Source: Nitrospirota bacterium (lineage in GTDB: Bacteria; Nitrospirota; Thermodesulfovibrionia; Thermodesulfovibrionales; SM23-35). From it: 34,672 nt of DNA. A program made the translations under genes and the position numbers. Every line of letters begins with the position of its first letter. Position 1 is the stretch's first letter. The notes under the pieces are model-generated. The model searched no databases and was not told where the DNA came from. It saw only the letters and a program-made list of their open reading frames with translations. Shown piece by piece: positions 15,722-22,542 of the stretch. The DNA lies in contig JACUUX010000028.1 of assembly GCA_014859105.1 (NCBI GenBank), positions 1-34,672 of the forward strand, given 5' to 3'.

Positions 15722-18591
15722 TCATTCATCTCCTGATGGATTTATCTCAGTGCCCTTGGTTGCTTCATGCTTCCTCTGTTTGCCGAAGGTCTTTTCGATC
15801 AGTACATAGAATAGCGGTGCAAATATGGTCACCAGGAAGGTGGCGGTCACCACGCCGCCTACTACCGCGGTGCCGATGGCCTTTTGTGCGCCGGCACCCG
15901 CGCCGCTGGCCAGCGCCAGCGGCAACACGCCAAAGCCAAAGGCCAGCGAGGTCATAACGATCGGGCGCAACCGGAGTTTGGCCCCCTCGAGCGTCGCCTC
16001 AATCAGGCCCATGCCTTGTTCCAACCGGGCTTTGGCGAACTGGACGATCAGGATGGCGTTCTTGGTGGTCAGTCCGAGGGTGGCCAACAGGCCGATCTGG
16101 AAATAGACGTCGTTGGGCATTCCGCGCAGCGACGAGGCGATCACGCCGCCAATTGCCCCCAGCGGCAGGCCCAGCAGAATTGAAATGGGAATAGGCCAGC
16201 TTTCATACAGTGCCGCAAGGCAAAGGAAGATCACCAGGATGGAAAAGGCATAGAGCGGGACGGTCTGAGCACCCGCCTGCCGCCCTGGATGAAGTCATTG
16301 ACATATGCGCTGCCGAAGGCAGCCGAGATCATATGGTGGATTGAGGTAATAGGCACTCCCAGCGCTCCGGCCTTCTCCCAATCCACATCAATCCGGTATT
16401 CGGGCACGTCTTCCAGACCGTTGGGCCGGACATTTGTCAATACCGGGTTCTTTGCAGCCATGCCAAGAAGTTGGTTGCGAGCTGTCATAAGCTCGGCGTG
16501 GCCCAGACCGCCACGGTCAAGCAACTGAAAATCAAACCCCTTTGCCATGCCCAATTCAACAACAGCCGGCGGCGGAAAAGCAAATACCATGGCGTTGCGT
16601 ATCCTGGAAAACTCCCCCATGGCTCTTCCGGCTACGGCGCCCACCTTCAGGTCCGGCCGGTCGCGGAGTTCCCAGTCCTTAAGCTTGACGAATGCCATTC
16701 CCGCATTCTGTCCGCGACCGGAGAAATTTATGCCGGAGACCGCCATAAAGGATTCAACAGCGTCTTTTTCATGCTCCAGAAAATAGTTTTTGATCTCATC
16801 CATGACCTTTTTGGTCTGCTCCAGTGTCGAGTTCGCCGGAAGCAGGGCCTGCACCATCAAGATTCCCTGATCTTCATCCGGGAGATAGGCGGTAGGCATT
16901 CGTTGAAACAGGAATCCCATTACCGCTATAATCAAAAGAAAAATGACTATGTAGCGGATTTTTTTGGATAGGGTCCGGCCAACAAATTGCAGATATTGGT
17001 CTCTGGCCCAAAAAAAGATGCGGTTAAACCATCGGAAGAACGGTCGCAGGAACTTTACCCCAACCTCCGATGCTGCATGTCCCTTGGGCACGGGTTTGAG
17101 AAACGATGCGCATAACACCGGCGTCAGGATAAGGGCCACCACTACCGAAAGGAGCATGGCGGCTATGATGGTTACGGAGAACTGGCGGTAGATGACTCCC
17201 GTTGACCCGGCGAAAAACGCCATCGGTCCGAAGACCGCTGATAGCACCAGCCCGATTCCGATCAGTGCACTGGTGATCTGGTCCATGGATTTGCGGGTGG
17301 CCTCTCTCGGGGAAAGCCCTTCTTCTCTCATGATTCTCTCCACGTTCTCCACCACGACGATGGCGTCGTCTACCAGCAGGCCGATGGCCAGCACCATGGC
17401 GAACATGGTAAGCATGTTGATAGAGAAACCGAAAATCCCCAGTACAGCGAATGTCCCGAGGATCACGACCGGCACCGCGATGGTCGGGATCAGTGTGGCA
17501 CGCATGTTTCCCAAGAACAGAAACATCACCAAAAAAACCAGCAGGATCGCTTCGAAAAGGGTCTTGACCACTTCATTGATGGCTACCCTGACGAAGGGCG
17601 TAGTGTCGAAGGGATAAATGACCTTCATGCCGGAGGGGAAGAAATGGCTCATCTCTTCCATCTTGTCCCGGATGGCATTGGCCGTATCCAGGGCATTGGC
17701 GCCGGCCGCCTGCCGGATAGCCAGACCAGCTGAGGGCTTGCCGTTGAAATAGGCCTCGACATCGTAGGATTCGGTTCCGAGTTCAGTCCGCCCCACATCC
17801 CTGACCCGCACGATGGAACCATCAGGGTTTGTGCGGAGGGGGATCGCGGCAAATTCATCGGGCGTCTTGAGCAGGCTCTGAACGACAATTGAGGCGTTCA
17901 GCCGTTGGCCTGCAACAGCCGGAGCCCCACCGAACTGGCCGGCGGATACCTCCACGTTGTAAGCCTGCAGCGCCGTGATCACATCCTGAACCGTCATCTG
18001 GTAGTCGTTCAGCTTGTCGGGGTTCAGCCAGATCCGCATGGCATACTGGCCGCCAAAAACTTCCACCTCGCCCACCCCCGGCACACGCGAGAGCACCTTA
18101 TCCAGGTTGGATTGTGCATAATCCCGTAAATCATTCCCGTCCATGCTCGCATCCTCCGAGATCAGGCCGACGATCAACAGGTAGTTCCGGGTGGACTTGC
18201 TCACCTTCACGCCCTGGCGCTGCACCACCTCAGGCAGGCTAGCCATGGCAAGCTGAAGCTTGTTCTGCACCTGGGCCCAGGCGAGGTCCGGATCAGTCCC
18301 CGGCGCAAAGGTCAGTTCAACGCGGGAAGCACCGGCCGAATCACTGCTGGCTGAAAGATACAGCATATTGTCGAAGCCGGTCATCTTTTGTTCTATGATC
18401 TGCGTCACGCTGTTTTCGACAGTTTCCGCCGAGGCCCCCGGATAAAATGCGGTGATGGCAATGGAAGGAGGAGCAATGGGAGGATACTGCGAAATCGGCA
18501 GGTTATAGATCGCCAGCAAGCCCGCAATCATAAGGATGATGGCGATAACCCAGGCGAAGACCGGACGATCAAGGAAGAATCTTGATAACAT
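15722..18591 (-). pseudogene. acrB: RND (HAE1/AcrB-type) efflux pump gene with internal deletion and frameshift
   Basis: The first frame (16231-18591) encodes the N-terminal about 775 residues of an AcrB-type proton-driven exporter, beginning [15 protein letters not shown] and including the TM4 pair in [13 protein letters not shown]. It stops making sense after [10 protein letters not shown]. The family sequence resumes in a different frame near 16276 with [35 protein letters not shown] and LRLRPIVMTSLAFG, to the stop at 15722. Compared with E. coli AcrB about 100 residues are missing: most of the docking subdomain and the second part of PC2. The proton-relay Asp, Lys and Arg positions survive but lie on separate frames. 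Flanking acrA and oprM are intact, so this is a recent lesion or a sequence/assembly error. Confidence 0.9.
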
Positions 18592-18603
18592 CATGCGCCT
18601 CCG

Positions 18604-20896: not shown

Positions 20897-21541
20897 TTAT
20901 TCTTTTATTGCGTTTAAAACAGCTTCTGCAAAATCCTTTTCGGGAATTGCTCCGGCTATGCTGAATTTTTCGTTAATAATGATCTTTGGAACTCCCTGGA
21001 CATCATATTTAACCGCTAGATGAGGGAACTCTTTTATTTCTACCATATCTGCTGTTATGTTGTTATTAGCCATTGCAAAACGGTGAGCTGTTACAACAGC
21101 CTGCGCACAGTACGGTCAGGTAGGTGAAATCATCACCTGGATATGAACCGGTTTGTATACTTTAGATAAAACTGCAAGCACATCATGGGGAAGCTTGGGG
21201 TCCCGCTGGCTTACATTTATTATGTCCTGAATAAAAGTTGTAAATTCATAACCAGCAGGCATGCCATAGAAACGAATCCCGTAATCCCCGTCTCCAATAA
21301 GAATTATGGCTGGAATCTTATCTATATTGTAAGTTTTAGCGAGATCTGCTTCTTTAACGAAATCGTGAACCTCAAGTAAGATTTTCTCTGAAAGTTCTGC
21401 AACTTCTTGGAGCAGTTCTCTTGTTAATCTGCAGTGTTCGCATTCAATTTCTTGAGTAAACATAACGATTTTTACACTTTGCGGAAGGGATTTAAAAATA
21501 TCCTTTAATTGCTTGCGGTCTTTTTCTGAGATTTTTCCCAT
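20897..21541 (-). CDS. Protein disulfide oxidoreductase with in-frame TGA at the active-site Cys (probable selenoprotein, UPYC)
   Basis: Two tandem thioredoxin folds, as in the PDO/glutaredoxin-like family (Pyrococcus PDO is about 226 aa). Domain 1 has CEHC (C34, C37) and a cis-Pro in KIPAIIL. Domain 2 should carry CPYC in the family context VTPTCPYC; here the codons read ISPT, TGA, PYC. After the TGA (21116-21118) the frame continues for 72 codons with good family match (AHRFAMANN, DMVEIKEFP, YDVQGVPKIII, GAIPEKDF) to a TAA at 20897. With the TGA read as residue 142 the protein is 214 aa. Conventional callers stop at 141 aa. A SECIS-like hairpin follows the TGA. The ATG has AAAGGT upstream and lies 11 bp after the flavoprotein gene. 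A nonsense mutation is the alternative. Confidence 0.8.
21086..21101 (-). promoter_or_regulatory. SECIS-like hairpin after the in-frame TGA
   Basis: On the minus strand GGCTGT-TGTA-ACAGCT forms a 5-bp perfect stem plus a G.U pair with apical loop TGTA. The perfect stem (GCTGT/ACAGC) begins 15 nt, and the loop 20 nt, after the TGA, and G is among the first two loop bases. These fit the known bacterial SECIS constraints (loop about 16-37 nt from UGA, G at the start of the loop). The stem is short, so the call is provisional. Confidence 0.5.
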
Positions 21542-21552
21542 GTCTTACCTTT

Positions 21553-22542
21553 CTATATTAGAGAAGTCCGGACAAGATAATCGTAAGCAGATAAAGCTGC
21601 CTTTGCCCCTTCTCCTGCTGATATGATTATTTGTTTGTATGGGACAGATGTTACATCACCCGCACTGAAGAGTCCTCGTACACTGGTGCGGCACAAACAG
21701 TCAACTATTACTTCACCCTCTTCATTAAGTTCAACTAAATTCTTGACAGGGGCGGAGTTAGGCAAAAGGCCGATCTCTATAAATATCGCGTCTATATCTA
21801 TCCTCTTTTCCTCGCCAGTATCTCTATTTTTGATTATACATGATTCTACTTTATCTTTACCCTCTATCCGGATAATTTCATGATTATCTAAAAAATGTAT
21901 TTTTTCATATTTTTTTACTCTTTGTTTGAGTATTTCGTCTGCCTGCCACTCTTTCATAAGATTCACAAGGATGATTTCTGCATTGACTCTGATCAAATCG
22001 AGGGCTGTTGTAAATGCAGAGTTCCCGCCACCGATTATTATCACTTTTTTATCCCTGAACAGGGGAGCATCACAGGTAGCACAATAGGAAATCCCTTTCC
22101 CCACAAAATCTCTCCCTCCAGGGACCCGGAGTTCCCTGTGGCGTTCCCCTGTTGTAAATATGACAGTACGGCCTGAATAAACTGTACCGTCTTCAAGGAA
22201 AACAGAAAAAAAATCATCCTTCTTTTTAATTTCCTTTACAGGAACTCCGTAATTTGCGGGTATTTCGAAACTTTTCACATGTTCTTCAAATCTTGAGACA
22301 AGGTCTCTTGCATTTATGTTTTGAAATCCCAGATAGTTTTCTATTTCGGTTGTTTCATTCATCAGTCCCCCGAAATCGATTGTGAGGATGGCCAGATTTA
22401 TCATTTTCCTTGCTGCATATACAGCAGCACTCATAGCTGCAGGACCGGCACCAACTATCAACATGTCGTATAATATATTCCGGGCAGGTTTCTGGATCTG
22501 TATGATCGTTGAAGTATCCAGTATAATACCGGGAAATTCCAT
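21553..22542 (-). CDS. Thioredoxin reductase-like flavoprotein, AhpF-type nucleotide-binding region
   Basis: 329 aa. The FAD motif is GAGPAA (31-36), the redox disulfide is CATC (C154, C157) in ISYCATCDAP, and the pyridine-nucleotide Rossmann motif is GGGNSA (171-176). It closes with GLFSAGDVTSVPYKQIIIS, as in AhpF and TrxR. The HRRxxxRA signature of NADPH-dependent TrxR is replaced by NLMKEWQAD, closer to the AhpF form, suggesting NADH or another donor. A 25-residue leader precedes the FAD domain, but there is no AhpF-type N-terminal domain. The oxidoreductase gene 11 bp downstream supplies an equivalent two-fold domain, so this enzyme probably reduces that protein. Confidence 0.94.
   Translation of the reverse strand: MEFPGIILDTSTIIQIQKPARNILYDMLIVGAGPAAMSAAVYAARKMINLAILTIDFGGLMNETTEIENYLGFQNINARDLVSRFEEHVKSFEIPANYGVPVKEIKKKDDFFSVFLEDGTVYSGRTVIFTTGERHRELRVPGGRDFVGKGISYCATCDAPLFRDKKVIIIGGGNSAFTTALDLIRVNAEIILVNLMKEWQADEILKQRVKKYEKIHFLDNHEIIRIEGKDKVESCIIKNRDTGEEKRIDIDAIFIEIGLLPNSAPVKNLVELNEEGEVIVDCLCRTSVRGLFSAGDVTSVPYKQIIISAGEGAKAALSAYDYLVRTSLI

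Follow-up and report, generated by a model that had tools for sequence, protein, structure and literature searches.

AhpF and the archaeal PDO-TrxR couples are models for a flavoprotein that passes NAD(P)H electrons to a protein disulfide oxidoreductase (PDO). AhpF (TIGR03140) and its fused homologues combine a PDO-like domain with a TrxR domain that carries CATC. PDOs are also known from archaea and Aquifex, including the structures that we take to be the Pyrococcus (1A8L, 1J08) and Aquifex (2AYT, 2YWM) enzymes, together with that of Aeropyrum (2HLS). These have an N-terminal CxxC and a C-terminal CPYC at equivalent places. PDOs with selenocysteine (Sec) have also been described: a survey from 2006 listed two members, in Carboxydothermus hydrogenoformans (ABB15282.1) and Symbiobacterium thermophilum (PMC1794560), and four have been reported from Asgard archaea (Sifarchaeia/Borrarchaeales; PMC11227280).

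We analyzed a 34,672-nt stretch of DNA from a Nitrospirota bacterium (contig JACUUX010000028.1; hereafter the window) that encodes a PDO with a predicted Sec residue. The protein resembles the known Sec-PDOs in its match to the TIGR02187 model, in its UxxC pattern, and in having Sec/Cys pairs among its homologues, but belongs to a different bacterial lineage. Its gene immediately follows one for a TrxR-like protein; the known Sec-PDOs were compared by family model and UxxC pattern. With the archaeal and Aquifex PDOs it shares the same two-domain fold over the full length, but these have Cys where the window PDO has Sec. The initial annotation regarded a Sec form of the two-fold PDO, paired with an AhpF-like reductase, as little described, which did not hold up, as the selenoprotein family was catalogued by 2006 (PMC1794560) and its Asgard members have been published too (PMC11227280). 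The window PDO is thus a new addition to a known selenoprotein family.

The PDO Gene and Its Family

Features of the locus are listed in Table 1. The coordinates first given for the PDO gene were correct, but came without a strand: it is the minus strand that carries the gene, and the plus-strand reading of the same interval translates to noise. Under translation table 11 the product ends at 141 residues. When the TGA is read as U, the reverse complement yields 141 residues, U, and 72 further residues, in a frame that has no other stops or frameshifts and continues to a TAA. The TGA is codon 142, in the local context VMISPT-U-PYCAQ. Alignment to PDB 1j08 places one CxxC/UxxC site in each of two thioredoxin folds, an intact CEHC at residues 34–37 and UPYC at 142–145.

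Table 1. Features of the PDO locus, with positions numbered within the window.
Feature	Positions	Strand	Details
PDO gene, TGA read as Sec, 214 aa	20897..21541	minus	ATG at 21541-21539, TAA at 20899-20897; translation, TIGR02187 and PDB matches
In-frame TGA, predicted Sec142 codon	21116..21118	minus	replaces first Cys of C-terminal CxxC
bSECIS-like hairpin	21080..21106	minus	GGCUGU-UGUA-ACAGCU
TrxR/AhpF-like flavin reductase, 329 aa, CATC	21553..22542	minus	directly upstream of PDO gene

The read-through protein scores 269.5 bits against NCBIfam TIGR02187 (curated cut-off 185 bits) over profile positions 2–208 of 209, and the current NCBIfam name of this model, PDO_seleno_TRX, itself includes “seleno.” Matches to PDO structures include 1j08 (E = 2e-48) and 1a8l (E = 3e-47), as well as 2ayt and 2ywm. 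Both 1J08 and TIGR02187 have Cys aligned to residue 142. Two proposals of the initial annotation are thereby borne out, namely that in the C-terminal CPYC the TGA takes the position of the first Cys, and that the frame goes on for 72 codons with PDO resemblance to a total of 214 aa. Standard gene calling would truncate this protein at 141 residues, with loss of the active site.

Elsewhere in the window, an RND efflux permease gene (15722-18594, minus strand) is broken. Its first piece extends to profile position 766 and its second begins at 882 in another frame, with about 115 codons absent at the junction near 16231; this is either a degraded gene or an assembly fault.

Selenocysteine Decoding Machinery

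The initial annotation named a genome without Sec machinery as grounds for rejecting its proposal. The source genome (3.16 Mb in 148 contigs, estimated 100% complete) proved to encode all the components sought. Profile searches identified SelA (524.7 bits), SelB (364.3 bits vs. a cut-off of 242), and SelD (381 bits), and a tRNA-Sec scored 71.7 bits against a gathering threshold of 47, with the anticodon UCA according to ARAGORN. A single contig (C42) carries selA, selB, and tRNA-Sec together. The SelD gene (L065, G000:C6:57115-58041) has an in-frame UGA of its own at the known Sec site (AAGUASKISPG), and so provides an internal control that the organism decodes UGA as Sec.

SelA is present in all eight of the other genomes with a TGA form of the PDO, and tRNA-Sec was above the cut-off in seven of them; none was above it in the eighth (G102), possibly due to an assembly gap. 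Because SelA is common in the order (154 of 176 genomes), its agreement with TGA is expected and only weakly informative.

A Candidate SECIS Element

Published criteria for bSECIS elements specify a loop of 3–9 nt, a stem of 4–16 bp, a G in one of the first two loop places, a distance of 16–37 nt from the UGA, and an energy of at most -7.5 kcal/mol (PMC13188914). The window hairpin is within all of these limits, with an upper stem of 6 bp, a UGUA loop (G second), a short lower stem, 20 nt between UGA and loop, and -8.1 kcal/mol. Taken alone it is not unusual, as 18–30% of synonymous-codon shuffles are as stable, and an Rfam scan of the window returned only a tRNA. The 59 nt after the UGA, folded without constraints, show no excess stability (z = 0.03), so hairpins were instead sought under SECIS geometry and compared with synonymous-codon shuffles. 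SECIS-like hairpins are present in all nine Sec forms, which have lower z-scores relative to their own shuffles than the Cys forms (n = 46; rank test with 16–37 nt spacing and loops of at most 14 nt, p = 0.002). Given the relatedness of the sequences, this p-value is a guide only. A narrower geometry (loop start at 16–21 nt) was picked post hoc, and we place no weight on its p-value.

Distribution of Sec and Cys Forms

We searched the 176 genomes of the order for homologues and added a wider sample of the phylum. Apart from the window's own genome, six genomes of its family have a stand-alone PDO. Two of these PDOs (L011 and L012; 69 and 65% identity) come from other genera and carry TGA at codon 142, and four (L013–L016; 58–62% identity) have TGC or TGT, which is the Cys/TGA alternation that the initial annotation had suggested looking for. 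Fused PDO-TrxR proteins make up most of the more distant forms in the order, and four of them (L070 in G130, L071 in G001, L072 in G055, and L073 in G002) have TGA at the equivalent of codon 142. The phylum sample contributes one more stand-alone (L077) and one more fused (L078, in G423) TGA form. The five fused TGA forms, with the motifs UPYC, UPLC, and UPIC, are probably Sec fusion forms of AhpF type.

Altogether, TGA is found at this codon in nine homologues and TGT or TGC in the rest; in every Cys-form homologue the residue aligned to the TGA is Cys. The searches of the order and the phylum gave ten homologues with an in-frame TGA inside the match, and in nine of the ten it falls at one codon out of about 210, a concentration that goes beyond chance.

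When Sec and Cys are mapped onto a tree of 53 homologues, at least five changes of the Sec label are required, even if only well-supported branches are considered. The Sec clade to which the window PDO belongs (n = 3) is nested within Cys relatives, which suggests a possible gain of Sec from Cys in the window's family. We lean toward a broader interpretation, that Cys and Sec have been exchanged repeatedly at the PDO/TrxR transfer site in the phylum, with at least five gains or losses across stand-alone proteins and AhpF-type fusions. For fused PDO-TrxR proteins, the recurrence of Sec at the same codon may be less described; a non-exhaustive literature search found no paper on it, and a search on selenoproteins in Nitrospirota returned nothing useful.

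Two further loci with TGA were observed. One (L079, in G271) encodes the C-terminal half of a PDO beside a TrxR-like gene, with a normal CPYC and a TGA elsewhere upstream; it has the appearance of a copy that is decaying or was misassembled, and was left out of the Sec count, its TGA being at another place. The other is a PDO homologue in a Chloroflexota MAG (L042, JAUVSX010000199.1), also beside a TrxR-like gene, in which TGA replaces the second Cys (CPYU). It was set aside as a second Sec position, as SelA was not found in that genome; either the TGA is an error, or the gene is a pseudogene, or the genome is incomplete and uses a different Sec position.

Alternative Explanations for the TGA

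A pseudogene, or a sequencing error, would need just one base change from TGT or TGC, in a draft genome of 148 contigs. The same TGA, however, recurs in the two other genera at 65–69% identity, where the rest of the frame is intact, and in six more distant homologues, and the window frame itself is otherwise undamaged. A codon common to separate genomes makes a read error, another of the grounds for rejection named in the initial annotation, untenable, and we consider this explanation very improbable. We give equally little credence to a true stop, with a 141-residue product whose C-terminal domain is disabled. TGA does end 5 of the 24 genes in the window, but the 72 codons downstream evolve as coding sequence. 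Among the three Sec genes of the window's clade dN is 0.14–0.25 after the TGA vs. 0.23–0.26 before it (dS is saturated or nearly so), and most differences after the TGA are at third codon positions, e.g., 12, 8, and 42 changes at positions 1, 2, and 3 between L010 and L011. Frame decay in relatives, which the initial annotation had listed as counter-evidence, is thus not seen, and the substitution pattern indicates that the half downstream of the TGA is selected as protein. A true stop would also leave unexplained why nine homologues are all interrupted precisely at their catalytic residue.

An in-frame TGA in a well-kept frame might also point to a genome-wide change of code, with TGA assigned to a different amino acid (as in a Trp or Gly code). 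The code cannot simply have changed, since TGA is also an ordinary stop in the window (the 5 of 24 genes above), and both the complete Sec machinery and the consistent alignment with Cys oppose this explanation, to which we assign a negligible probability. The in-frame TGA almost certainly encodes Sec at the reactive site of the PDO, and every check proposed in the initial annotation that could be run supported this interpretation.

The Adjacent Reductase and a Proposed Electron Route

The reductase scores 327.6 bits against AhpF, in its C-terminal part, and 310.8 bits against TRX_reduct, in both cases below the cut-off. The AhpF equivalog TIGR03140 calls for one fused chain above 502.9 bits, and the locus is not a member, having two genes of which the PDO alone scores 80.6 bits and the reductase alone 327.6. 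In the source order the PDO and the TrxR-like protein are mostly one fused chain, in contrast to the separate, adjoining genes here. A TrxR-like neighbor is kept in all seven genomes of the family with a stand-alone PDO, and, judging from gene order and homology, the adjacent reductase is probably the electron donor to the PDO. The window PDO keeps its N-terminal CxxC, unlike most of its fused AhpF-type relatives. In a set of fused homologues (L020–L039), the N-terminal CxxC is mostly replaced (by N, D, F, T, or S) and the C-terminal CPYC is kept, suggesting that the C-terminal site has the transfer function.

We regard the following explanation as very likely correct as a whole: a Sec-PDO of the TIGR02187 family, formed by decoding of UGA142, that most likely receives electrons from the adjacent flavoprotein. 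Given the machinery, the conservation, and the agreement with bSECIS criteria, UGA142 would be decoded by SelB and tRNA-Sec with help from the downstream hairpin. In the C-terminal domain, Sec142 and Cys145 would then make up a reactive selenol/thiol pair, this site corresponding by homology to the Trx-like domain of AhpF. NAD(P)H would supply electrons to the flavoprotein (CATC), from which they would move on to the PDO (CEHC and/or UPYC), and finally to disulfides or a peroxiredoxin-type acceptor. In this scheme Sec142 would attack the substrate disulfide, and Cys145 would resolve the mixed selenosulfide.

Significance

The locus represents a well-supported Sec-PDO with a likely reductase adjoining, rather than a new class. 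The close Cys relatives permit a direct comparison of Sec and Cys within one family. If the exchange is indeed recurrent, the PDO/TrxR couple would be a natural test bed for the contribution of Sec to one redox relay.
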